DNA of 20,926 bases from a virus. How positions within the stretch are numbered: the stretch's first letter is position 1; each line of letters opens with the position of its first letter. A model generated the notes under the pieces. It was not told where the DNA came from and did not search any database. It saw only the letters and a list, made by a program, of their open reading frames with translations. Shown here in pieces: positions 1,672 through 20,374 of this stretch. Both the position numbers and the translations under genes were made by a program. The stretch spans positions 1 to 20,926 of the IMG/VR virus record IMGVR_UViG_3300025118_001772; one strand, given 5' to 3'.

Positions 1672-1743
1672 TTAGCCGACCCTGACAGACGAAAAATACC
1701 CCGACTTTTTTTCCGAGCTTTTTTGGAATAAAAAAGCTAAATT
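1672..1743. repeat. Intergenic repeat element, copy 1 (direct repeat)
   Basis: A ~70 bp element immediately downstream of the glgP stop, with a similar copy in the same orientation at 6627-6697. Both share a TTAG[C/T]CGACCCT block, a central A-run/T-run pair, and a perfect hairpin. Here the hairpin is AGCTTTTTT/AAAAAAGCT (1716-1724 with 1730-1738), and the glgP stop codon lies inside the stem. The hairpin is AT-rich and not followed on the transcribed strand by a clean U-run, so it is not a classic intrinsic terminator. It may be a 3'-end processing or stability element. Confidence 0.7.
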
Positions 1744-4121
1744 TGCCACACCCTATCGCAATAATCTTTTATCGATCTGTCACTTGAGAAAAATCCTGAC
1801 CTTGCAATGTTTAACAGGGACATGGTGTTCCAGTTGTCCTGATCTTCCCACGCACTACTGACACGATCCTGAGCATCAAGATAATCATTAATGTCTGCCA
1901 TAACACAAAATGGGTCGTGATTGATCAGATTATCTAATAAAGCCGAAAAGACATCTTTATCACCGTGACTGAAATGACCACCCTGAATCAAATTTATCGA
2001 TTCCCACACTTCATCACTCATATGGTCTCTAGGGTTATATCCCTGATCCCACAAATTACGTATTCCATTCTCATCATGTCCAAATAGGAAGAAATTCTCT
2101 CCTCCCACTAAATTACGAATCTCTACATTTGCCCCATCTAACGTACCAATGGTAAGAGACCCATTCATCTGGAATTTCATATTACCTGTACCAGAAGCTT
2201 CCTTACCTGCTGTAGAAATCTGTTCTGATAGGTTTGCAGCAGGATATACTAATTCTCCCAACTTGACACTATAGTTTGGCAGGAATACTACACGTAACTT
2301 ACCATCCATATCAGGATCACTATTAACAATTTCTGCAATACTACAGATAAACTCAATAATCTTCTTAGCCATATAATATCCAGGCGCAGCCTTACCAGCA
2401 AATATTACTGTCCTTGGCACTACATTATGACCGTCTTTAATGCGTCTGTACTGAGTAACACACCATAATGCAAGTAAATGTTGTCTCTTGTACTCATGAA
2501 TCCTCTTGACTTGTACATCAAATAGACTGGTAGGATCAACAGATACTCCACAATGTTCAAAGATATAATTGGCAAGATTATGCTTTCCTATAATCTTAGA
2601 CTCCGCAAGTTTCTCTAATAAATCTGGATTGGATTTATTCTCCTCCAATTTACTAAGAGTATCCATATTAGTGATCCAATTTGGACCAACATACTGATCA
2701 AGAACTTGTGTAAGTGATGGATTAGAAGATGCAATCCACCTCCTAGGAGTAACACCGTTAGTCACATTGGTGAATTTATGTGGCCAAAGATCAGCAAACT
2801 CTGGCATCAACTGTGTCTTAATCAACTCAGAATGTAACTCTGCAACACCATTAACATGATGAGATCCAATAGTTGCAAGGTTTGCCATCCTAACAAACTT
2901 ATTACCACTCTCATCAATAATGGACATCTTCTCCAATATGGCATCATCGCCAGGATAATTCAGTCTCACTACCTGTAAGAATCTTCTATTAATTTCATAG
3001 ATAATCTCCATATGACGAGGTAGAAGTGTCTTAAACATTTTAAGATCCCACTTCTCTAATGCTTCTGGTAGAAGAGTGTGATTAGTATATGCAATGGAAG
3101 CATGTGTTATCTCCCATGCTTGATCCCATTCCATATGACGATCATCAACAAGGAGTCTCATCAATTCAGCAACAGCAACAGATGGATGAGTATCATTCAA
3201 CTGTACCTGATAATGTTCTGCAAACTGTTCAGCAGGAATACCACGTTTATCAAGACTATTAAACATGTCCTGAAGAGATGCACTAACAAAGAAATATTGT
3301 TGTTTTAATCTAAGTGTCTTACCAGCATCAGTACCATCATTAGGATAAAGAACCTTAGAAATAGTTTCAGAAGTAACACTCTGTTCTACAGAACCAAGAT
3401 AGTCACCAATATTAAATGCATAGAAATCAAATGTCTCAGTAGCATCGGCTCTCCATAGTCTTATCTTATTACAACTATTAACTTGATAGCCTAACTGCAA
3501 TATATCATAAGGAACTGCAACTACCTGTTCAGAAGGAACCCATCGAACCCTATAGTTATTATGATCTGAAATATAATTCTCTACTTTACCACCAAATCCA
3601 ACTAAAATAGACTCATCTGGCTGACATAACTCCCATGGCCAATCTCCATGCAACCAGTTATCAGTTATCTCTAACTGCATGTTGTCTTTGATTATCTGTT
3701 TGAATATACCATACTTGTACCTTATACCATAACCTGTAGCAGGAACCTTTAGTGTCGATAGTGACTCCATATAACAAGCAGCAAGACGACCTAACCCTCC
3801 ATTACCTAAGCCAGGTTCCTCTGCAATTTCAAGTACCTTTTCCAAACACTGATCATATTCATTCAATGCTTCTCTTGCTTCACCTACTAGTCCTAAGTTG
3901 AGGAGGTTACCATTCAACTGTGGTCCTATTAGAAATTCAGCTGATAGATATGCAACTTCTTTCTGTCCTTCTTTCTTAGTATCTAACCAGTAAGTCATCA
4001 TCTGATCTCTTACTGCATAACATAATGCCATGTAGAAATCATGTCGGGAAGCACTGTCAGGTCTCTTACCTAGAGTATAGTAAAGACGTTCTCTAATGCC
4101 ATTGTATAGATTATTTTTCAT
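1737..4121 (-). CDS. glgP: Glycogen/starch/maltodextrin phosphorylase (GT35)
   Basis: A PLP-dependent enzyme that releases glucose-1-phosphate from alpha-1,4-glucan. With 794 residues from the chosen start it is full length (bacterial enzymes are ~800). Conserved blocks appear in order: EEPGLGNGGLGRLAACYMES, GIRYKYGIFKQ, QLNDTHPSVAVAELMRLL, VTNGVTPRRWI, VQVKRIHEYKRQHL, and EASGTGNMKFQMNGS with the PLP lysine at ~649, then TIGTLDGANVEI. All core motifs are intact. The reading frame stays open back to 4193, but the ATG at 4119-4121 is preferred: it has AGAGG five nt upstream and overlaps the preceding oxygenase stop by 11 nt (translational coupling). The stop is TAG, inside the hairpin of repeat copy 1. 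It probably acts on host glycogen in the cytosol. It is unusual for a phage and sits in a block bracketed by direct repeats. Confidence 0.95.
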   Translation of the reverse strand: MKNNLYNGIRERLYYTLGKRPDSASRHDFYMALCYAVRDQMMTYWLDTKKEGQKEVAYLSAEFLIGPQLNGNLLNLGLVGEAREALNEYDQCLEKVLEIAEEPGLGNGGLGRLAACYMESLSTLKVPATGYGIRYKYGIFKQIIKDNMQLEITDNWLHGDWPWELCQPDESILVGFGGKVENYISDHNNYRVRWVPSEQVVAVPYDILQLGYQVNSCNKIRLWRADATETFDFYAFNIGDYLGSVEQSVTSETISKVLYPNDGTDAGKTLRLKQQYFFVSASLQDMFNSLDKRGIPAEQFAEHYQVQLNDTHPSVAVAELMRLLVDDRHMEWDQAWEITHASIAYTNHTLLPEALEKWDLKMFKTLLPRHMEIIYEINRRFLQVVRLNYPGDDAILEKMSIIDESGNKFVRMANLATIGSHHVNGVAELHSELIKTQLMPEFADLWPHKFTNVTNGVTPRRWIASSNPSLTQVLDQYVGPNWITNMDTLSKLEENKSNPDLLEKLAESKIIGKHNLANYIFEHCGVSVDPTSLFDVQVKRIHEYKRQHLLALWCVTQYRRIKDGHNVVPRTVIFAGKAAPGYYMAKKIIEFICSIAEIVNSDPDMDGKLRVVFLPNYSVKLGELVYPAANLSEQISTAGKEASGTGNMKFQMNGSLTIGTLDGANVEIRNLVGGENFFLFGHDENGIRNLWDQGYNPRDHMSDEVWESINLIQGGHFSHGDKDVFSALLDNLINHDPFCVMADINDYLDAQDRVSSAWEDQDNWNTMSLLNIARSGFFSSDRSIKDYCDRVWQI

Positions 4122-4650
4122 TAGGGCCTCTAGGTGGTTCTTGTAAGTAAACGTTGCCTGCAATTGTTGTTCCTTCATTACCACTGGTAACAAAGTGTTC
4201 TATCCATGATGGGAAGATTATTATATTACCAGAAGGAATTTGCGGCATGAAATCCATAGGTATGGATTCTGCATACATTGCCCACTGGTTCATGATAACT
4301 TTCCTAGAAGGATTCATAAACACAGTTCTAGAATGTTCAACGGATTCAATTATAACGAAACTCCATTGAGCACCAGAATGTATATGAGGATCCTGCCAAT
4401 CAGTCGTTGTGTATTTGTTTCTCCAAACTTGTCCAATATAAAATGGATCATTCAGAAACTGACCTATACACTCATCAATTATCCCATGCAAATAAGAATA
4501 ACTCTCGTCAGTAAAAGAGTCCCTACCCATAGTAGTTTTAATGCCACTAAGGTATGAACTCTCATACTTCTCAGATACTAAGTTAACTCTATCCAAATCT
4601 ATCTCTTCTATGAAGAAAGGAGTCGGAAAGATAGCGTTAGGATTTCTCAT
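4111..4650 (-). CDS. 2OG-Fe(II) oxygenase-like protein (TIGR02466 type)
   Basis: A 179-residue protein resembling the TIGR02466 family of putative 2-oxoglutarate/Fe(II) oxygenases common in cyanophages and marine bacteria. Visible features are the metal-site region DPHIHSGAQWSFV (His89, His91), a strand with NPSRKVIM, and the distal IIIFPSWIEHFV (His152) before the final strand TTIAGNVYLQEP. The true substrate is unknown; proposed roles of the family include hydroxylation of proteins or small molecules. The ATG at 4648-4650 (MRNPNAIF) is chosen because the farther upstream ATG lies inside the terminator of the preceding gene. No strong Shine-Dalgarno is seen. It overlaps glgP by 11 nt and probably shares its transcript. 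With the terminator directly upstream, transcription must come from readthrough or an unseen promoter. Confidence 0.75.
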   Translation of the reverse strand: MRNPNAIFPTPFFIEEIDLDRVNLVSEKYESSYLSGIKTTMGRDSFTDESYSYLHGIIDECIGQFLNDPFYIGQVWRNKYTTTDWQDPHIHSGAQWSFVIIESVEHSRTVFMNPSRKVIMNQWAMYAESIPMDFMPQIPSGNIIIFPSWIEHFVTSGNEGTTIAGNVYLQEPPRGPNEK

Positions 4651-6627: not shown

Positions 6628-6697
6628 TAGTCGACCCTACAGAGTAAAAAATAGCCAGAGTTTTTTTTCCAGCTTTTCTGAAACAAAAAGCTGAATT
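6627..6697. repeat. Intergenic repeat element, copy 2 (direct repeat)
   Basis: The second copy of the ~70 bp element at 1672-1743, in the same orientation and again immediately downstream of a CDS stop (the GT11 gene ending at 6696). Shared features are the TTAGTCGACCCT block, an A-run then a T-run (TTTTTTTTCC), and the AGCTTTT/AAAAGCT hairpin (6671-6677 with 6686-6692). On visual alignment roughly three quarters of positions agree, with a few indels. The element runs up to the start codon of the DUF6445-like gene and supplies its AGGG. Confidence 0.7.
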
Positions 6698-7553
6698 AGG
6701 TGACGATCCATCCATCACAGTATAAGTCCTTGAGATTCTTATCTTTATAATCAGGACCGAACCATTGCTTAGGTGCAACGACTGGACCTCTACCGTTCTG
6801 TAACCATGCACCCCACCAAGACATTGATGAGTTAGCAATGATTGCACCAGAGCATAGACTCATGATACAAAGATCAACAAATGGTTCATAAGATCCATCC
6901 GAATACTTATCAGTTGGTTCTGATATAAGGAACCTATCATCAGCAAAGAACTCCTGTTCCTTTACCCACTCAGGCGAGTCAGAACAGACCACAATGGGTT
7001 GATCCTCTGGGAAATGAGTCAATGCCCTCTCATAATATTCCACTGGTTGTGGAGGGTGTTGGGAGGAGCACTGAGTATAAGACCACTTGAATCCTCTTGC
7101 GTCTGTAAGGTTTGGATCTCCTCTTCTTACATGAAGAAAGAGTGGTGGAGAATCGAGAGACTCAACCATCTCTTTACATGGCCCTAAGATAGAATCATGA
7201 AAAGTATAATCTCTTCTTATATCTGCTTCTATATTCTTAAAGTACTTCTCTGACTGGAAGAATCCAAAGAGACTTACCTCATTAGGACACATCCTATGGA
7301 GTTCTTCATCAAAATGAAAGTGTTTCTCTATAACAACAGGAGCATGACCTCTATCTAAGACTGCAAGGTTACTTGAACCAACACTCTCTAATGTGAATGC
7401 TCTATGAAGACTATAGTTATCTACCCTACTCGTCTCGAATGGTGGTATTCCAAATTCATACCCACGCATCGCAGCGATACCACGTACTGCAGCGTATTGA
7501 AACATCTGATTACCTAGACGACCTAGGTTTCCTATCTGATTAAACGCCAGCAT
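6696..7553 (-). CDS. GT11 fucosyltransferase-family glycosyltransferase, copy 1
   Basis: A 285-residue enzyme of the GT11 family (alpha-1,2-fucosyltransferases using GDP-L-fucose). Family motifs are complete: N-terminal GRLGNQMFQYAAVRG, the donor-binding LFLHVRRGDP (HxRRxD), and the C-terminal IMSLCSGAIIANSSMSWWG. It is the most canonical of three GT11 paralogues here. A strong AAGGAA Shine-Dalgarno lies 5 nt before the ATG, inside the end of the previous gene (14-nt overlap). It ends just before repeat copy 2. The actual donor could be GDP-L-fucose or GDP-L-galactose, given the GME gene upstream. Confidence 0.9.
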   Translation of the reverse strand: MLAFNQIGNLGRLGNQMFQYAAVRGIAAMRGYEFGIPPFETSRVDNYSLHRAFTLESVGSSNLAVLDRGHAPVVIEKHFHFDEELHRMCPNEVSLFGFFQSEKYFKNIEADIRRDYTFHDSILGPCKEMVESLDSPPLFLHVRRGDPNLTDARGFKWSYTQCSSQHPPQPVEYYERALTHFPEDQPIVVCSDSPEWVKEQEFFADDRFLISEPTDKYSDGSYEPFVDLCIMSLCSGAIIANSSMSWWGAWLQNGRGPVVAPKQWFGPDYKDKNLKDLYCDGWIVT

Positions 7554-8376: not shown

Positions 8377-9291
8377 TTATTCTGGAGCAATGTAGGATGG
8401 ATCGTTATGAACCTTAATCCATCTTGCAGGAATTAAATCCTTCATATCATACTGTTCATATGCAACACCAAACCAAGGATCAGGAGCAACAACCGTCCAG
8501 TTAGAATTCTTCTGCGAATCTCCACCTCTTTGTAACCATGCACCCCACCATGATAAGGATGAGTTAGCAATGATACCACCTCCACACAATGTCATAAGAC
8601 ATAGATCAATGTAAGGTACAGATGCACCATCTCCAAACTCCTCATAAGATGAGTCAGAGAATAAGAATCTATCTCCTTTCAACCAATCCTGTTCCTTACA
8701 CCAGTCAATAGTATCTGATACCACAACAACTTGTTTATCATCTGGGAAGTGAGTCAATGCTTCAAGATAGTATTCCTTCTTACAAAGAGGATGATACTCT
8801 TGCACCATCTGATAGGACCACTTCTCTCCTCTCCTACCAGTTACATTAGGATTACCTCTACGAACATGTAGGAAGATAGTATTCTGTTGTCCTCCATTCT
8901 CTTCAATAAACTCTTGACATGGTTCTAGGTACTCTGATTTAAACTTAAAGTCACCTAGAATAGTACCAGCAATAGTTTCAAAATACCTTTCGGTTTGATA
9001 GTTTCCAGAGAAATTAGTGCCATCTTTACACTCATTAAAAATCTTTTCATTGAAGGCCATATCTCTATAGACTTCTTGTTGATGGAAGAAAGGTTCTCCC
9101 TGATTCTCTGGTTTGCATCCAGACAATTCAAATGCATCAAACAAACCATAGTTATCAAGTCTGTCTGCATCAGGGCCTGGAATAACCCAATCGAATCCTC
9201 TGTTGTGTGCTACACCACGAACAAAAGCATACTGGAACATTTGATTCCCCAGCCTACCTTCATTACCCATTCCTTGAAATGAAATAGCCAT
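8377..9291 (-). CDS. GT11 fucosyltransferase-family glycosyltransferase, copy 2
   Basis: A 304-residue GT11 member with GRLGNQMFQYAFVRGVA at the N-terminus and LCGGGIIANSSLSWWGAWL near the C-terminus. The usual HxRRxD donor motif reads HVRRGN, with Asn in place of Asp. The region after it (GRRGEKWSY) matches copy 1 (ARGFKWSY), so copies 1 and 2 form a closer pair than copy 3. It is slightly longer than the other copies because of inserts before WFG and at the C-terminus. It follows the nitrilase gene after 11 nt with an AGGAG 8 nt before the ATG. The spacer also reads TATAAATT, close to a late box. Confidence 0.88.
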   Translation of the reverse strand: MAISFQGMGNEGRLGNQMFQYAFVRGVAHNRGFDWVIPGPDADRLDNYGLFDAFELSGCKPENQGEPFFHQQEVYRDMAFNEKIFNECKDGTNFSGNYQTERYFETIAGTILGDFKFKSEYLEPCQEFIEENGGQQNTIFLHVRRGNPNVTGRRGEKWSYQMVQEYHPLCKKEYYLEALTHFPDDKQVVVVSDTIDWCKEQDWLKGDRFLFSDSSYEEFGDGASVPYIDLCLMTLCGGGIIANSSLSWWGAWLQRGGDSQKNSNWTVVAPDPWFGVAYEQYDMKDLIPARWIKVHNDPSYIAPE

Positions 9292-9302
9292 AATTTATAC
9301 TC

Positions 9303-10193
9303 CTAGTGTTGGTTTAAACGATGCCAAGGGAACTCATTGACCATCTTATCATCATATTCATAGTATTTACTTTTGTGTGTGAATTTAGTGTCCAAATCAT
9401 AATAAAAATACTGTCTTCCGTATCTAGGTATCTCAGTCTTCCACCCTTTATAGTCAAGGAATCCACTCTCACTAGAGGTTGGACACTCTGACACCTTCTC
9501 TTCAGTACCATCCCAGTTCCAAGGAACACAAGAATCAACTGTTAAGATAGGACACACAGCTTTAAGAGCAGTCATTCTTAGAAACCCATCACTATACTTA
9601 TCAAAAGCAAAGCGACGATCATCTTTCTTAGAAAACTTTATACCATTAGTTGCATGGAGTATTAGAAATAGATTTTTACCTGCTAAATGTTTTTCACAGA
9701 AAGCAATACCTATCTCTTCGGCCGCACCCCACATATCATTACAAACCGTTCCCACTGCCCATAGGTTAGGGGACAATTCAAAATAATCTAGAGGTTCATT
9801 AACCTTCTTACCTAAAGAAAGATCAGCTGGAATACAATAAGTCTTGCGAGTTATATTAATCAACTCACCAGTTGAATTGTAATGCCGAATTTGGTTTCTA
9901 TTAATTAAACCAATGCGTTCCTTCTCCTGATTACAGGTTCCCAAATGAAGTCCGACCCCAGACTTCTTCTGATGTTCTTCAACCTCAAGTAATGCAGATT
10001 GAAGTTCCTCTATCCTAAGTGGCCAACCATCAACGTCTGGATTCAAACTACTGTATCCAGAAAGAGCACCCTCTGGAGTAAGTAGTTGATCTACATTGTT
10101 TTCTTTGGCCCAATCAATCGCTTTAAAGATTTCTCTCTTATTAGATTGTATATCTTTACCACTTATAGGAATCTGAGCACCAGCAACCCTCAT
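9303..10193 (-). CDS. Nitrilase-superfamily carbon-nitrogen hydrolase
   Basis: A 296-residue member of the nitrilase/amidase superfamily with the Glu-Lys-Cys triad in place: Glu41 in LLTPEGALSGYS, the Lys in INITRKTYCIPADL, and the Cys in VGTVCNDMWGAAEE. It hydrolyses or transfers from a C-N bond; substrate unknown. The family includes the glutaminase domain of glutamine-dependent NAD synthetases, of interest because nadE lies 2.3 kb upstream in the same cassette. The ATG at 10191-10193 shares a base with the stop of the previous GT11 gene (TGATG) and has GGAG six nt upstream. A GTG one codon earlier is less likely. The stop is TAG. It sits between two GT11 genes, so a role in sugar modification is also possible. 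Confidence 0.8.
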   Translation of the reverse strand: MRVAGAQIPISGKDIQSNKREIFKAIDWAKENNVDQLLTPEGALSGYSSLNPDVDGWPLRIEELQSALLEVEEHQKKSGVGLHLGTCNQEKERIGLINRNQIRHYNSTGELINITRKTYCIPADLSLGKKVNEPLDYFELSPNLWAVGTVCNDMWGAAEEIGIAFCEKHLAGKNLFLILHATNGIKFSKKDDRRFAFDKYSDGFLRMTALKAVCPILTVDSCVPWNWDGTEEKVSECPTSSESGFLDYKGWKTEIPRYGRQYFYYDLDTKFTHKSKYYEYDDKMVNEFPWHRLNQH

Positions 10194-11050
10194 CACTTAC
10201 TCCAATCGTGAATGTGCCAACGTAAAGGAATAACATCAGACGTATCAAGGTGTTCCATTGAAGTTCCAAACCATTTCTTAGGATCAGGAGCAATGATTTT
10301 ACCTCTATTGTTTTGCAACCATGCACCCCACCAAGAGAAGGAACTGTTGGCAATTATACCACCAGAACACAAACTCATCAAGCATAGATCTACTTGTGGT
10401 AACAAAGTGTTCTGCATCTTACCAAGACCATCTATAGTTTGGTACTGATACCTCTCATTATCTTCATTGAATAAGAACCTATCATCATCAAAGAAGGATT
10501 GATTCTTACACCAATCTATATCATCTGTGAATACAAAACACTCTTTATCATTTGGGAATTCTTCTAACGCCCTCTCAAAATAACTGATAGGAAGTATAGG
10601 ATGGTAATTTTCCCTACCTATGTTATCAGACTGTCTGATATGTAAAAAGATGGGTTCATTTAATTGACTAATGACATACTTACATGGTTCAAGGAAATCA
10701 TCTTTGAATGTAAAGTCCTCACGAATCTGATCAGACATGTGAGCAAAGTATTTCTCTGTCTGCATGTAACCATCAAGATTCACTCCATCAGTACAATGAA
10801 AGAGACTGTCATCAAATGCATGTCCCTTCTCATTAATAGTCATGGCATCATTAAACCCGATGTTCTCAGGTTTAACATTAGTCATCTTAAAGGTTTCAAA
10901 TAACCCATAATTATCTTTATGATTACAATCTTCAGGTGGAATCATCCAATTGAAAGTATTGTACCATGCTATACCTCGTAGTGAGGCGTACTGGAACATT
11001 TGATTGCCCAGTCTGCCATTACTACCAAGTTTATTATAACTAATCGTCAT
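10193..11050 (-). CDS. GT11 fucosyltransferase-family glycosyltransferase, copy 3 (divergent)
   Basis: A 285-residue GT11 protein with N-terminal GRLGNQMFQYASLRGIA and C-terminal LCSGGIIANSSFSWWGAWL, but the donor motif is HIRQSD instead of HxRRGD. The second Arg, important in the family, is replaced by Gln. The C-terminal WFGTSMEHLDTSDVIPLRWH parallels copies 1 and 2. The start at 11048-11050 is chosen because its ATGA overlaps the TGA of the upstream dehydrogenase; a start five codons earlier is open but would overlap more. The change may mean a different donor or loss of activity. Confidence 0.85.
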   Translation of the reverse strand: MTISYNKLGSNGRLGNQMFQYASLRGIAWYNTFNWMIPPEDCNHKDNYGLFETFKMTNVKPENIGFNDAMTINEKGHAFDDSLFHCTDGVNLDGYMQTEKYFAHMSDQIREDFTFKDDFLEPCKYVISQLNEPIFLHIRQSDNIGRENYHPILPISYFERALEEFPNDKECFVFTDDIDWCKNQSFFDDDRFLFNEDNERYQYQTIDGLGKMQNTLLPQVDLCLMSLCSGGIIANSSFSWWGAWLQNNRGKIIAPDPKKWFGTSMEHLDTSDVIPLRWHIHDWSK

Positions 11051-12210
11051 AGATCTATATTCCAAGTAGGTTCATGTATCTCTCTAGAATTTCTGACAAA
11101 TATAATACTATCATCATATAGATCTTCCAATTCCTCTTGGAATCTTTCTATAACTTCATCAATATCCATTACATATACAGTATGTCCATCCTTAAGAAGA
11201 TCTTCAACCAGTCTTAGTCTTGAACTCTCTACAACCATATCAGATCCTACTTTGAATCCAATACTTTCTATAGAGAATGGAAGGCCTTCTTTATTCTGAT
11301 CTACACAGAAGTTCTTAATAAACTCTGCATGTGCCTCATTGAAATCATCCGTCACTTGAGGAAGACTATACTTAAGTCCTACACTGTCAGCATAATATCC
11401 TAGGGCACGATTATCACGAGGCAAACAAGGGCCACCAAAACCTAATCCAAAGTTAAGATACTTGGAACCAATCCTAGTGTCACTTCCAATGGACTCAAGG
11501 ATGGCAGGAATCTCTTCACTACATCCAGAGTTGTGTAGAATCTGACCCATCATATTAGCGTAACTAATCTTATAGGTAAGGAAACAATTGATTCCTATCT
11601 TAGTAATCTCTACTGCCTTACGTGACAGTGAATGGAATACTACTTCAGTGTCCTGAATACCCTCATAGATGTCTTGAATCAATTCAAATCCACGATGATA
11701 ATCTGAACCATACTCACCACCACAGAGAACCATATCCGCATTTCTTAGATCACGAATGATACTACCCTGAGCAATGAACTCTGGATTATAATAAACTGAG
11801 ACACCTCTTCCTTCTAATCGATCAACAACAGTATCACAATAGCCAGGATTAGTAGTACATCCAATAACAAATATCTTACCATCAATAGATGGACATCTAC
11901 TAAGATCCTCAACTACCTGATCCACACAAGTACAATCGTAACTACCATCATCAAGAGATGGTGTAGGTACAAAGGTAAAGATCACATCTGAGTGACGAAT
12001 AACCTCTTGATTATTAGTAGTCGCTTGGAACCTCTCGGTTCTCATAAGAAGATCTTCTACCTCTGGTTCAGAGGAATCGATCTGCTTACCCTTAAGACCA
12101 CTAACATAACTGCTGACCACATCGGAGACAACAACATCATGACCTGCATCTTCACATAACAATGCGAAGCACAGTCCTAACCTTCCTGCGCCAATTACAC
12201 CGATTTTCAT
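11047..12210 (-). CDS. ugd: UDP-glucose/GDP-mannose dehydrogenase family (UGD type)
   Basis: A 387-residue, NAD-dependent nucleotide-sugar 6-dehydrogenase that oxidises a sugar nucleotide to the uronic acid (UDP-glucose to UDP-glucuronate is most likely, but UDP-HexNAc or GDP-mannose is possible). Visible are the Rossmann motif MKIGVIGAGRLGL, YYNPEFIAQGSIIRDL, EITKIGINCFLTYKISYANM with the conserved Lys204, and the catalytic Cys262 in GFGGPCLPRDNRAL. A third domain follows (VVESSRLRLVEDLLKDGHTVY). The start at 12208-12210 has an AAGGAGG Shine-Dalgarno in the tail of the previous gene; a longer open frame upstream (to 12279) lacks the Rossmann start. It overlaps GT11 copy 3 by ATGA. It consumes NAD, which fits with nadE nearby. 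Confidence 0.92.
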   Translation of the reverse strand: MKIGVIGAGRLGLCFALLCEDAGHDVVVSDVVSSYVSGLKGKQIDSSEPEVEDLLMRTERFQATTNNQEVIRHSDVIFTFVPTPSLDDGSYDCTCVDQVVEDLSRCPSIDGKIFVIGCTTNPGYCDTVVDRLEGRGVSVYYNPEFIAQGSIIRDLRNADMVLCGGEYGSDYHRGFELIQDIYEGIQDTEVVFHSLSRKAVEITKIGINCFLTYKISYANMMGQILHNSGCSEEIPAILESIGSDTRIGSKYLNFGLGFGGPCLPRDNRALGYYADSVGLKYSLPQVTDDFNEAHAEFIKNFCVDQNKEGLPFSIESIGFKVGSDMVVESSRLRLVEDLLKDGHTVYVMDIDEVIERFQEELEDLYDDSIIFVRNSREIHEPTWNIDL

Positions 12211-12214
12211 TGGA

Positions 12215-12541
12215 TTAATTCTCCTCCTTTTTAGTTTTCCGAGTTCTTCTCTTACGTGTTTTCTTTGGTGCAAGACCACCTATCCATGCTTCATTCTCTG
12301 GAGTGGAAGGATCATCTTTAATATAATGACCTTGTTTATTCCTAGCTCTAACAGGTTTAGTGACCTTGACTTTCTGTTTCTCTTCTTGAACAACAGGTCC
12401 TCGGATTACAGAGTCCGTAATGAACTGTTCCACAGGATTACCTGTGCAAATCTTTCTTATATGAACAACTCTTTCGTTGCCTTCAATCTGATCACTAATA
12501 ACTTCTATCGTTAGATAGGATGTAGACTCTGGAATTTTCAT
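12215..12541 (-). CDS. Hypothetical protein with basic C-terminal tail
   Basis: A 108-residue protein of unknown function. Residues 1-50 look folded with alternating strands (YLTIEVISDQIEGNERVVHI). The middle is Lys/Arg-rich with a Pro-rich turn, and the C-terminus is strongly basic (APKKTRKRRTRKTKKEEN), suggesting binding of nucleic acid or an acidic partner. It is ATGA-coupled to nadE upstream, and its last codons carry the Shine-Dalgarno of the dehydrogenase gene. It does not look like a sugar enzyme, so it is out of place in the cassette. Confidence 0.75.
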   Translation of the reverse strand: MKIPESTSYLTIEVISDQIEGNERVVHIRKICTGNPVEQFITDSVIRGPVVQEEKQKVKVTKPVRARNKQGHYIKDDPSTPENEAWIGGLAPKKTRKRRTRKTKKEEN

Positions 12542-13302
12542 GATTCTCCAAGTTTAAATGTAGGGATTGGTTCCATCTTGTGCCTGTTTTGTTTGTTGAA
12601 TCGGTAAAGAATATCAACCGCTGGGCCAGTACCAGTCTCCATTGCCTCTTCCAACTGTGCATAGGTAGCACCGATCTGATCTTCATCAGTCCGATCATCT
12701 TCCCATAGACCATCAGTAGGTTGAGCATCAAGGATCTCTGGGATTACTCCAATGAATCCTCCGAGTTCTCTGACTTCTGTTTTGTAGAGGTCAGCAATCG
12801 GTGCAATGTCAACGCCACCGTCACCATACTTAGTAAAAAAACCGATTCCATAATCTTCTACCTTGTTACCCGTACCAACAACAATACCACCAACGTTCTG
12901 AGCAATGTGATACAGAGTCATCATGCGAAGACGAGCCTTTGAGTTGGCCTTTGCCAATGGATTACCAATGTACTCCATATCCATATCATCGGAAAGTCCT
13001 TTGATAAATTTGGCAAAAGTTTCTGATAGATCAGTCTTTAAGACTTTAACATTATCATAACTCTTATCCAACCAGTAAAGGTGGGCATCAGAGAGAGTTT
13101 CCTGTTCTATCTTCTGACTCAGTGGCATACCCACAGCATAAACTGGTACTCCAGTCTTGGCTGCAAGAGTAGAGGTGACAGCAGAATCAATTCCGCCAGA
13201 CACCCCTACTACTAGTGAGTTTATCTTATTGTCATTAATATACTTACAAAGCCACCCGACTATATCAATAGTCAGTTTCCTGTAATCATCAATTCGATCC
13301 AT
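12538..13302 (-). CDS. nadE: NAD+ synthase (NadE type)
   Basis: A 254-residue ATP-PPi (PP-loop) enzyme that amidates deamido-NAD to NAD. Features are the PP-loop VVGVSGGIDSAV (residues 33-43), then SKARLRMMTLYHIAQ, GTGNKVEDYGIGFFTKYGDG and VDIAPIADLYKTEVRELG, and the late motif PTDGLWEDDRTDEDQIGATY. Together these are the hallmark of NadE. The length fits the ammonia-dependent single-domain form, without the glutaminase domain. It overlaps the upstream methyltransferase by 14 nt and is ATGA-coupled to the next gene. NAD is needed by the dehydrogenase and bound by the SDR enzymes of this cassette. The separate nitrilase-family gene could in principle supply ammonia, but that is inference. Confidence 0.9.
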   Translation of the reverse strand: MDRIDDYRKLTIDIVGWLCKYINDNKINSLVVGVSGGIDSAVTSTLAAKTGVPVYAVGMPLSQKIEQETLSDAHLYWLDKSYDNVKVLKTDLSETFAKFIKGLSDDMDMEYIGNPLAKANSKARLRMMTLYHIAQNVGGIVVGTGNKVEDYGIGFFTKYGDGGVDIAPIADLYKTEVRELGGFIGVIPEILDAQPTDGLWEDDRTDEDQIGATYAQLEEAMETGTGPAVDILYRFNKQNRHKMEPIPTFKLGES

Positions 13303-14110
13303 CCTTCTTTGTTGCTAGAATAACAGTGTTCTCGTAGTCACGGCCAACATCAAAGGTAAAATACTCTTTGATCTTGTCAATGAAATCATTATAATGGAAA
13401 TCATTGAAATTGACAAGGTTGTATATGATATACGCATACTTAGAATGTTGTACAATACATTTGAAGTATGCCATTTGTGATTCCAAATCACACTCAGACA
13501 GTGCGTAGTTACTAATGAATAGATCTACGTCTGTGATCTCCGCAAGGTCTGTTGTTGGAATACACTTAACCTTATCCTTAAGATCTGGGAACTGATCAAT
13601 ATACTTCCTCTGCAAGGCACTAACCTCTGGAAGATCGATCATAATATACTCATCAAATTCACAGACCATACTAAGAACTCTACAGAGTCCTCCATATCCT
13701 CCGCCAACTTCAACAACCTTACTAATCTCTGCACCATCCATCATGAATGACATCTCAAAGGTGTTCTTCATATACCTTAGAGTTGTAGGAGAGATAGGTC
13801 CTTCAATGCCAGGATAGATATGTGTTTCTGGGTTACCTATCTTATCGTTCTCCTTAAAGAGTTCAATGTTTGAATCAACACCCTCCTCACTCATCTCTCT
13901 ACAGATGTTAAGATAACACTGTCCTTGATCCTTTAGTACATGTTCTAAGATAGTCTTGTACTTGGGATTTGATTTGAAGTTTGCAAAGGCATCATCATTC
14001 TCAACGGCTTCAACACATGCAGCCAGATACTCTACAGCAATCTGATCTTCTGCTTGCCATCCACTACGATCATCCTTTACTTCTTCAGCATTCACATCGA
14101 TTGTTGTCAT
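13289..14110 (-). CDS. Putative sugar O-methyltransferase (SAM-dependent)
   Basis: A 273-residue protein resembling the putative sugar O-methyltransferase family (TIGR04371-like). The SAM-binding motif I is SKVVEVGGGYGGLCRVL, followed by EYIMIDLPEVSALQRKYI (acidic end of strand 2) and VDLFISNYALSEC (motif II/III region). The N-terminal ~110 residues are helical, with QGQCYLNICREM and a PISPTTLRYMKN segment typical of this family. It probably caps or decorates a sugar residue. It is ATGA-coupled to the GT10 gene upstream and overlaps nadE by 14 nt. Confidence 0.75.
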   Translation of the reverse strand: MTTIDVNAEEVKDDRSGWQAEDQIAVEYLAACVEAVENDDAFANFKSNPKYKTILEHVLKDQGQCYLNICREMSEEGVDSNIELFKENDKIGNPETHIYPGIEGPISPTTLRYMKNTFEMSFMMDGAEISKVVEVGGGYGGLCRVLSMVCEFDEYIMIDLPEVSALQRKYIDQFPDLKDKVKCIPTTDLAEITDVDLFISNYALSECDLESQMAYFKCIVQHSKYAYIIYNLVNFNDFHYNDFIDKIKEYFTFDVGRDYENTVILATKKDGSN

Positions 14111-15093
14111 GATACTTTGGCTCTTTGTTCTCTGTATGGGTCTAGTTGAATAAAATAATTACCGTAAAGATAATCCTCTGAGACTCTCATACATTGAGCA
14201 ACCTCAAAGTTTTCTTTAATAACTTCCTTCTTGGATTCATAATACTCTGGTGTAAGTTTGTCCCAAGGAATATTTTCCCAAGGTTCATCCTTATCCAAGA
14301 ATATAATGCCTTCATGGTTGAAGTACTGTGCTACTCCAGCAGTACCATAATACACTGGAATAGTACCACATGCAAAGCAATCGGTCAATTTCTCAGTGAA
14401 ATAGGTAGGATAATTCGCATTTTCACATGCAAAGCTGAACATATAGTCACGCAGGCCTCTAGATTTCTCTTTTAATGGGAGTTCTTGTCCCAATCCCCAA
14501 CCAAATAGATCATCCTGACCAAACTTCTCTACATATTTCTCTACAACTCTAAGTCTTCTCTTATGTCCCTCAGTATATCCTTTGTTGGATGCAATCATTG
14601 AGACAAGTTTTGTCTTAGTATAGATATCCCTATCCATAACCCAAGGAGCAGCATTAGATAGACAGTAAAGAAACTTACCATCTGGGCCTGCCTCTTGAGT
14701 CAATCGTTGATCGGATGTAAAGATACCATCAACCCTACTAGCAACGAAGTCATAGTTGTCTTCGATCCACTTGTATTGTTCTCCAATAATCTCTCTCGAT
14801 TCCAGTAACCAAATGAACTTAGGTAACCCACTGTTATCTTCAAGTACCTTTAGTGCCTCTTGATTAACATACAGATTACAAAAACCAGATCCATCACGAA
14901 CGAATCTAGTATAAACTGATCTATTGTTTGCTGATGTAGATGGTTCTAATGAATCATTACAGAAGAGATTAATAGGAAACTTCTTACTGGGATCCAGAAC
15001 AGGTATATCAACACCAGTTGGACTCGCCTTAGCCTGTGCAATAATATCTTGAAGAGCCTTCAACTCTTCTTCATTCTGTGGAACTTTACTCAT
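14107..15093 (-). CDS. GT10 fucosyltransferase-family glycosyltransferase
   Basis: A 328-residue enzyme of the GT10 family (alpha-1,3/1,4-fucosyltransferases). The C-terminal donor-binding domain shows KTKLVSMIASNKGYTEGHKR, DLFGWGLGQ, and YMFSFACENANYPTYFTEKL followed by DCFACGTIPVYYG, which matches the family signature (F-E-N-S/A...Y-x-T-E-K-L...G-x-x-P-V-x-x-G). The N-terminal acceptor domain is more divergent. With the three GT11 genes it makes four fucosyltransferase-type enzymes in one window. The donor may be GDP-L-fucose or GDP-L-galactose. Its start overlaps the upstream SDR gene by 8 nt. Confidence 0.88.
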   Translation of the reverse strand: MSKVPQNEEELKALQDIIAQAKASPTGVDIPVLDPSKKFPINLFCNDSLEPSTSANNRSVYTRFVRDGSGFCNLYVNQEALKVLEDNSGLPKFIWLLESREIIGEQYKWIEDNYDFVASRVDGIFTSDQRLTQEAGPDGKFLYCLSNAAPWVMDRDIYTKTKLVSMIASNKGYTEGHKRRLRVVEKYVEKFGQDDLFGWGLGQELPLKEKSRGLRDYMFSFACENANYPTYFTEKLTDCFACGTIPVYYGTAGVAQYFNHEGIIFLDKDEPWENIPWDKLTPEYYESKKEVIKENFEVAQCMRVSEDYLYGNYFIQLDPYREQRAKVS

Positions 15094-19042: not shown

Positions 19043-19273
19043 TTAATATTTTCTATATGCAGGTACTCCTGCGGGGTCTAACCATTTAGTATATTCTGGA
19101 TCTTCAATACAAGTATCCATTTGCATTTGATTATCTAAAAGATACATGTCCTTATACCTTTTAGTATATTCATCATATTTCTGTATCCTAAAATCCATTT
19201 TACCATTAGACAAGAATAGATTAGTATGGACAAACCTATAAGGTCCTTGCGTCACTATGGGAATGTATTTCAT
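19043..19273 (-). CDS. Hypothetical protein, 76 residues
   Basis: A small soluble protein, MKYIPIVTQGPYRFVHTNLF, rich in Tyr, Asp and Lys (RIQKYDEYTKRYKDMYLLDN), with an aromatic C-terminus (KWLDPAGVPAYRKY). No family recognised. It is ATGA-coupled to the previous small gene and ends 2 nt before the oxygenase gene. Coupling on both sides supports real expression. Confidence 0.65.
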   Translation of the reverse strand: MKYIPIVTQGPYRFVHTNLFLSNGKMDFRIQKYDEYTKRYKDMYLLDNQMQMDTCIEDPEYTKWLDPAGVPAYRKY

Positions 19274-19482
19274 TTAATTAAATCCTCAGAAAGTAGATCC
19301 AAAATTAACTCATAGTCGTCATATGGATCATTATAAAACTGTACTCCACTGTTTCTGTAAAACTTCAATACTTTCTTATATAACTTTTGATTCTGGTGAT
19401 CCAAATCGATGTTCCGATTAACTGCCTCTTGAAAAATACTCAAACTGGTCCTGAACTTATGCGAAAAATGTGACCTTGACAT
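19270..19482 (-). CDS. Hypothetical protein, 70 residues, first gene after the promoter
   Basis: A small basic-then-acidic protein. It has an N-terminal MSRSHFSHKFRTSLSIF, a helical middle (LDHQNQKLYKKVLKFYRN), and an acidic end (DDYELILDLLSEDLIK). No family recognised; it does not resemble a RelE/ParE toxin that could pair with the antitoxin upstream. It begins ~20 nt downstream of the consensus sigma-70 -10 box, making it the leading gene of the large operon. Confidence 0.65.
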   Translation of the reverse strand: MSRSHFSHKFRTSLSIFQEAVNRNIDLDHQNQKLYKKVLKFYRNSGVQFYNDPYDDYELILDLLSEDLIK

Positions 19483-19504: not shown

Positions 19505-19533
19505 ATTATACTTCTGTGTTGTTAGTTTGTCAA
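19505..19533 (-). promoter_or_regulatory. Consensus sigma-70 promoter (TTGACA-17-TATAAT) for the glycan cassette
   Basis: On the minus strand a perfect -35 TTGACA (19528-19533) and a perfect -10 TATAAT (19505-19510) have the ideal 17-nt spacing. The -35 abuts the TAA stop of the antitoxin-like gene. No terminator is seen downstream until at least 6696, so it can drive the whole sugar cassette with host polymerase. Confidence 0.9.
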
Positions 19534-19749
19534 TTATAGATCATACTGGGTCATACTCTCCAACCATTCATCATTCTCTATTGAAGTTGCCATCTTCACA
19601 TCTAGAGATGACTGTATCTTATCCTTATCTGGAACCAATGCAATGTCCTTACCATCAGGCGTAAGAATGAGAAATGATTTCCCACCCTCAGCCTGTCCTA
19701 GAATCTCATCAAAATGAGATTCTAAGTATTCTAATGTAATTTTTTCCAT
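19534..19749 (-). CDS. Phd/YefM-family antitoxin-like protein
   Basis: A 71-residue protein with the fold signature of Phd/YefM antitoxins: MEKITLEYLESHFDEIL (strand then helix), GGKSFLILTPDGKDIALVP (the ribbon with G-K/R-x-x-A-x-x-x-P), and an acidic, probably disordered C-terminal arm (IENDEWLESMTQYDL) of the kind that wraps a toxin. In toxin-antitoxin pairs such proteins bind the toxin and repress their own promoter. No toxin gene follows: the next genes are unrelated small ORFs. It starts 4 nt after the peroxiredoxin-like gene. Confidence 0.7.
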   Translation of the reverse strand: MEKITLEYLESHFDEILGQAEGGKSFLILTPDGKDIALVPDKDKIQSSLDVKMATSIENDEWLESMTQYDL

Positions 19750-19753
19750 TTAT

Positions 19754-20374
19754 TTAATGAGGAGATCCACCACCCATGATAGGTGAGGTATCAAGTAATG
19801 AAGCCAATCCCTTCGTATTTTCGGCTGCAATATGTGATGCCTGATTTCTGTTCCTTAAGGCTTTAATAACATTGGTAGGGTTTGTTTGCACATATGGTTG
19901 CAACACACACTCATCCTTACCTTCATTGGGAGCCTGTTCTGCGGTATTCCAAATACACATACAGTCTTGTACTAGAACAACCGATCTCCAGTTCCTCTTA
20001 TACATTCCAGTATTGAACTGAGTGCAACAACAATCGCCCTCAGAAAGTCCATCATTCTCATTAATTCTTAAAGACAATGCACCATTGCCATCAGGTAGAT
20101 ACTTACACTTCTTAATTTTCATCGACTTCCACCATGCATCCATAACAAATGGATCATTCATGGCAAGAAAGAAGATATCATTGATACCAAACTCATCACA
20201 AATATCATCATAAGCTTTCTCATATTCCTTTACCATTTTAGTATCATTAGCGGTAAAGGCGCCTGGTATCAGAAATAGTAAACAATCCTTTCCTTCAAAG
20301 AATTCTTTAACTGGGGTCTTGACTAACTTCTTTTTCTCAAAACCAAATAATTGTGCTTCAGGTAATACAAACAT
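19754..20374 (-). CDS. Peroxiredoxin-fold protein lacking the peroxidatic cysteine
   Basis: A 206-residue protein with the Prx5/AhpC-TSA pattern: DCLLFLIPGAFTANDTKMV, then EYEKAYDDICDEFGINDIFF, AMNDPFVMDAWWKSM and KYLPDGNGALSLRINEN. In true Prx5 enzymes the first block reads PGAFTPTC; here the Cys position is Asp44, so normal peroxidase activity is not expected. A triple Cys (CCC, 115-117) and further Cys (CMCIW) could give other thiol chemistry or metal binding. The C-terminal ~50 residues extend past the family core. Peroxiredoxin-like proteins are known in T4-like cyanophages. No strong Shine-Dalgarno is seen at the ATG. Confidence 0.8.
   Translation of the reverse strand: MFVLPEAQLFGFEKKKLVKTPVKEFFEGKDCLLFLIPGAFTANDTKMVKEYEKAYDDICDEFGINDIFFLAMNDPFVMDAWWKSMKIKKCKYLPDGNGALSLRINENDGLSEGDCCCTQFNTGMYKRNWRSVVLVQDCMCIWNTAEQAPNEGKDECVLQPYVQTNPTNVIKALRNRNQASHIAAENTKGLASLLDTSPIMGGGSPH

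Follow-up and report, generated by a model that had tools for sequence, protein, structure and literature searches.

The DNA analysed here, which we call the window, is a stretch of 20,926 nucleotides and a fragment of a T4-like cyanophage, best matched by S-SSM6a/S-SSM7 (77% identity across 54% of the window). Towards its end lies a small gene for a Phd-like protein, set in the following surroundings:

19754..20374, minus strand: peroxiredoxin-like gene (phrog_2281, Redoxin), the immediate upstream neighbour, separated from the Phd-like start codon by 4 bases
19534..19749, minus strand: Phd/YefM-fold protein phrog_375, 71 amino acids, ATG start, with a predicted N-terminal β-α-α-β-β domain (1-41) and an acidic disordered tail (42-71)
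19505..19533, minus strand: sigma-70-type promoter TTGACA-N17-TATAAT, directly past the Phd-like stop codon, oriented towards the two small genes that follow
19270..19482, minus strand: small protein phrog_552 (T4-GC 249), the first gene past the promoter
19043..19273, minus strand: small protein phrog_481 (T4-GC 250), with a 4-base overlap with phrog_552 and a predicted β-β-β-β-α fold

The peroxiredoxin-like and Phd-like genes are probably carried on one transcript. The Phd-like gene at 19534-19749 is real and conserved, and belongs to an already annotated cyanophage family: its open reading frame recurs in IMG/VR contigs (100% identity in two, 93% in another and 62-66% in four further), its product matches the PHROGs profile phrog_375, “Phd-like antitoxin” (E=4.9e-9), as do 35 of the 38 aligned family proteins, and the labels “Phd-like antitoxin” or “PhDYefM tox-ant domain” already stand on records such as those of S-PM2, S-RSM4, and S-SSM7. 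It was both the profile match and a common gene order that placed it in phrog_375. With the window protein as query, matches were found in 6 phage records, and with the S-RSM4 homologue in 71, all of them by name cyanophages or marine virus contigs. Compared codon by codon, the gene seems to be under purifying selection, with dN/dS values of 0.15-0.30 for contigs L004, L006, and L007; the value of 0.50 for the window and L003 comes from 9 differences only, and the window-L004 pair is saturated at synonymous sites. A limited literature search on the name “Phd-like antitoxin”, or on prevent-host-death proteins of cyanophages, returned no on-topic paper.

A recent capture of the gene from a host was considered and rejected, given that the phage profile matches only one of 300 host-family genomes, weakly, and that a genome scan found no relative. 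The same profile matched none of 121 Prochlorococcus genomes in a search made without a positive control, and the host/phage tree can be explained by only 2 changes where shuffling requires 35 on average, a weak comparison in view of its few columns and long branches.

Elsewhere in the window, all on the minus strand, there is a full-length glycogen/carbohydrate phosphorylase (1737-4193; PF00343, 1010 bits), whose 20 matching phage records include one cyanophage, Synechococcus phage S-SCSM2R (69.5%), and an NAD synthase domain protein (12538-13302; PF02540, 2.3e-46). A 297-residue open reading frame (9303-10196) looks by eye like a nitrilase-type amidase, with no Pfam match at 0.001. Three family-11 glycosyltransferase (fucosyltransferase-like) paralogues stand in one cassette (6696-7553, 8377-9291, and 10193-11065), accompanied by a family-10 fucosyltransferase-like gene at 14107-15093.

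The Phd/YefM fold and the position of R10

The AlphaFold model, which drew on 38 related sequences of the window and of viral contigs, is confident for the β-α-α-β-β domain (pLDDT about 90 at residues 1-40) and falls below a pLDDT of 50 at residues 43-61 and 65-71, as in a disordered tail. This predicted fold is that of Phd/YefM. In the Foldseek list, rows 1-32 are all Phd/YefM-type antitoxins, mostly P1 Phd and YefM-YoeB structures (best match E 3.2e-3, probability 1.00), and so are rows 1-23 of the VIA-align list (Z 6.6-4.2, the first unrelated row having Z 3.3), where the P1 Phd DNA-binding domain (4zlx_A) aligns at 1.6 Å over 46 residues. The VIA-align Z values are middling, and the argument is that one and the same family tops both lists. 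A sequence search against solved structures (query A1) gave chance matches only. The fold family is PF02604, whose profile scores 16.1 bits on the window protein against a curated cut-off of 29.8, and at E<=0.1 recovers 15 of 17 family members, the best of them with 5.2e-8. The original prediction of an antitoxin fold with an acidic C-terminal arm is thus upheld by the structure searches for its first part, and for its second by residues 42-71, an acidic stretch with 7 acidic against 3 basic side chains that is also largely disordered by pLDDT.

The DNA-binding face of the domain is a different matter. In YefM, R10 and R31 are essential for DNA binding, as stated in an excerpt of a review (PMC4803016). 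We aligned 49 distinct phage proteins with P1 Phd, E. coli YefM, and host-family Phd/YefM proteins, the latter being a selected set of 42 strong and 20 weak matches and not every match. At the R10 position, arginine or lysine is present in 61 of the 62 host proteins (33 R, 8 K, and 1 A among the strong matches; 13 K and 7 R among the weaker ones), whereas none of the 49 phage proteins has a basic residue there (37 E, 8 Q, 2 V, 1 D, and 1 I); an earlier alignment with 39 strong host matches gave 39/39 basic host residues vs. 0/49 in the phages. The folded domain as a whole has also become acidic, with a median charge of -5 in the phage proteins and -6 in the window, compared with 0 and 0.5 in the strong and weak host matches, respectively. 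A general bias of phage proteins does not account for this, since the first 41 residues of the neighbours phrog_481 and phrog_552 are basic (+2 and +5).

At the second YefM arginine, 23 of the 49 phage proteins carry K or R, and the window protein carries T. Some DNA affinity is therefore possible, and the R31 half of the DNA-binding argument is weaker than the R10 half. Taken together, the alignment indicates that operator binding has probably been lost across the family. Having lost the R10 equivalent, the family is likelier to act through a protein partner than by switching genes off. Of the features of autoregulated type II antitoxins, both the basic patch at the R10 equivalent and a recognisable adjacent toxin are missing here.

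The promoter past the stop codon

The Phd-like gene had been described as sitting right before a promoter, and indeed a perfect sigma-70 site fills exactly 19505-19533, with a score reached by none of 2000 shuffles of the gap. Both hexamers are kept in L004-L007, with the spacer changed. Where the Phd-like gene is present, 15 of 16 loci carry a promoter with at most one mismatch in 12 positions ahead of phrog_552; where it is absent, 8 of 27 do. Loci with the promoter but without the gene include P-SSM2 L107, L063, and L069. Being conserved in relatives, and present also where the Phd-like gene is missing, this promoter was assigned to the downstream genes, and its association with the Phd-like gene may reflect only common descent.

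These data also bear on the proposal that the protein is a repressor of this promoter, in which case it would bind 19505-19533 and shut the phrog_552-phrog_481 unit, as Phd/YefM proteins do on their own operators. The 15/16 vs. 8/27 association speaks for such a repressor, and some relatives, e.g., L092 and L094, have TTGAC..GTCAA inverted repeats close to the promoter by eye; however, the R10 equivalent is absent in 49 of 49 phage proteins, the domain is strongly acidic, the promoter occurs without the gene, and the window promoter contains no obvious palindrome by eye. We consider local repression quite improbable, and this part of the original prediction is not sustained.

In several relatives, the promoter and the coding sequence run into each other. 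The Phd-like stop codon lies inside the -35 box (TTGACA/TTGACT) of the next promoter in L008, L013, L014, and L080, and a complete TTGACA-N17-TATRAT promoter lies inside the Phd-like coding tail in L019 (3001-3207), L023, L049, and L079, partly by eye. In the S-RSM4 clade, 13 of 15 relatives encode W-Y-N as TGG-TAT-AAT, which reads as an extended -10, where background codon use would predict about 40%; as an embedded promoter this is only suggestive, the loci being related.

Partner toxins, neighbour genes, and hosts

In the window and ten phages, the genes around the Phd-like one encode 63 proteins, none of which was recognised as belonging to a toxin family, so the earlier observation that no toxin is nearby extends to the loci of relatives. 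Profiles of ParE/RelE (PF05016) and Fic (PF02661) were absent from 15 phage records, some of them fragments, and PADLOC gave no match. A “plasmid stability” protein near the Phd-like gene of P-HM2 was set aside, as it has no Pfam or NCBIfam match.

One might suppose that phrog_481 or phrog_552 is itself an unrecognised toxin with the Phd-like protein as its antitoxin, which would then be no orphan, all the more because phrog_481 comes directly after it in many relatives, often with the 4-base overlap typical of toxin-antitoxin operons. Nevertheless, phrog_481 is strongly conserved and far commoner than the Phd-like gene, being found in 461 phage records (tblastn, S-RSM4 homologue as query). 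In 111 loci, a count that takes in duplicates and the window's own copy, the gene orders were Phd-like-phrog_481 in 37, phrog_552-phrog_481 in 33, all three genes in 21, phrog_481 alone in 16, Phd-like-phrog_552 in 2, and the Phd-like gene alone in 2, so that 49 of the 111 have phrog_481 with no Phd-like gene detected (33 with phrog_552 and 16 alone). The predicted phrog_481 fold likewise has no toxin match: the best Foldseek row is Pur-alpha with E 0.3, while the toxin HigB2 reaches E 1.8 and Z 3.3. We rejected phrog_481 as a hidden toxin, and a toxin in either neighbour seems to us very improbable. The predicted β-β-β-β-α fold of phrog_481 is weakly like that of the Pur-alpha/PC4 nucleic-acid binders.

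Under classical counter-defence, the phage antitoxin would neutralise a RelE/YoeB/Doc-type host toxin that would otherwise stop infection. The fold and the arm fit this, and targets exist, with PF05016 in 87 and PF02604 in 133 of 300 host-family genomes. Excerpts of published work point the same way: lone cyanophage antitoxins countering host toxins have been proposed for S-CREM1 (PMC9964418), and a PIN-PhoH gene of Synechococcus WH8102 limits phage Syn9 (PMC5490813). Against it, the arm has no “LLRSP” stretch of the host YefM-type proteins. Moreover, PF02604, PF05016, PF06769, and PF02661 (Phd/YefM, ParE/RelE, YoeB, and Fic) were found in none of the 121 genomes of the genus containing Prochlorococcus MIT 9201, to which MED4 presumably belongs, while control genomes were detected in each of the four family searches. 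Nonetheless, the Phd-like gene is present in P-HM1, P-HM2, and MED4-213, three phages for which Prochlorococcus MED4 was the isolation host. An excerpt of a review agrees with this distribution: by its count, 27 of 33 Synechococcus strains, but none of 38 Prochlorococcus strains, have TA systems (PMC12413379). Since MED4-isolated phages have the gene where the candidate toxin families are lacking, a known host toxin is not the whole story, unless other hosts are used, and counter-defence in this classical form is thereby weakened to a plausible but less likely explanation.

The C-terminal tail and a comparison with known antitoxins

Most relatives of the window protein have kept a C-terminal peptide, ..TxHDDAS. 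The tail pattern [HN]x[DE][AG][SCPA]-end is present in 34 of the 49 phage proteins vs. 2 of 5647 other open reading frames of these loci, and since the motif codons vary synonymously, the tail is conserved as protein. In the window itself, W, M, and D of the tail (..DEWLESMTQYDL) still stand at corresponding positions, and the terminal HDDAS of the relatives is lost. The same tail is also found without the Phd domain: S-CAM9 encodes a 41-residue protein with the motif directly after talC, that is, in the place of the Phd-like gene of S-RSM4 and Syn1, and tblastn found this protein in nine isolate records, from S-CAM9, S-PRM1, S-8S53, S-8S55, and S-8S56. Tail patterns were also used to retrieve 13 viral contigs, 8 of which have tail-only proteins of 41-55 residues beside talC and phrog_552/phrog_481, and the other 5 have no open reading frame passing the filter; L260 and L261, retrieved in this way, are probably S-PRM1 and S-CAM9.

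Two further loci deserve a description. At the end of the tail-only gene of L254:1201-1400 there is an inverted repeat with T residues behind it, by eye resembling a terminator hairpin. At L065:1728-1886, the second of the two non-Phd reading frames with the motif encodes 52 residues of other ancestry, its N-terminal part resembling S-SSM5 gp185, with a similar tail (..DDEYIKIMTQHGDGP), and it lies farther upstream. The Fic-inhibition motif is [ST]xxxE[GN]; by eye, only 3 of the 49 tails fit it exactly, and such a function is not claimed.

Our preferred reading, to which we give about an even chance, is that the protein is a Phd/YefM derivative without DNA binding that most likely acts by its tail on a protein partner. 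The small folded domain, a dimerisation scaffold in Phd/YefM, would be kept together with the disordered acidic tail, while the operator-binding surface would have been lost, leaving the adjacent promoter unregulated by the protein. The tail would bind another protein, as antitoxins bind toxins, and would thereby neutralise or modulate a host factor during lytic infection, presumably to the benefit of the phage. The leading candidate for the partner is a toxin of a Synechococcus host, and the leading idea is that the protein would work like an antitoxin. The occurrence of the same tail without the Phd domain in the slot after talC argues for binding to a partner; against it, the window's own tail has lost its HDDAS end, acidic phage proteins can be DNA mimics in need of no tail partner, and K or R persists at the second YefM arginine in 23 of 49 phage proteins.

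More tentatively, and with a good deal less expectation than for partner binding itself, the slot between the metabolic genes and the early-type promoter might be kept for a short C-terminal peptide that binds a host factor, the carrier being either a Phd domain without DNA binding or a small leader of different sequence. The consensus of the slot peptide is ..[DE]x[WY]xx[ML]YTxH[DN]DAS-COOH. If this were true, an antitoxin fold would have been turned into the carrier of a binding peptide, active even in hosts without known toxin-antitoxin genes. Cyanophage “Phd-like antitoxins” are usually taken as anti-defence from the name alone, and the loss of R10, the gene in MED4-isolated phages, and a tail with and without the Phd domain provide a concrete and testable alternative, for which the conserved tail offers a 14-residue peptide bait in a search for the target.

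Among known systems, Dmd of phage T4 is a lone phage antitoxin without a toxin of its own. The Phd-like protein would act in the same manner as Dmd, which is mentioned in an excerpt of PMC7354431. With Phd of phage P1 (4zlx, 3hs2, and 4zm2), it shares the N-terminal fold and the disordered tail, but no doc lies beside the window gene, E10 replaces R10, and the domain charge is -6 vs. 0. With YefM of E. coli (2a6q) and of cyanobacteria, it also shares the N-terminal fold, but it has neither yoeB nor an LLRSP-type arm, and E and T stand in place of R10 and R31. Finally, with phrog_375 of S-PM2 (S-PM2p167), S-RSM4 (S-RSM4_045), and S-SSM7 (S-SSM7_245), it forms one family in a common slot, after talC, glutaredoxin, or peroxiredoxin and before phrog_552/phrog_481, from which the window differs in its tail without the terminal HDDAS and in its full promoter just past the stop codon.
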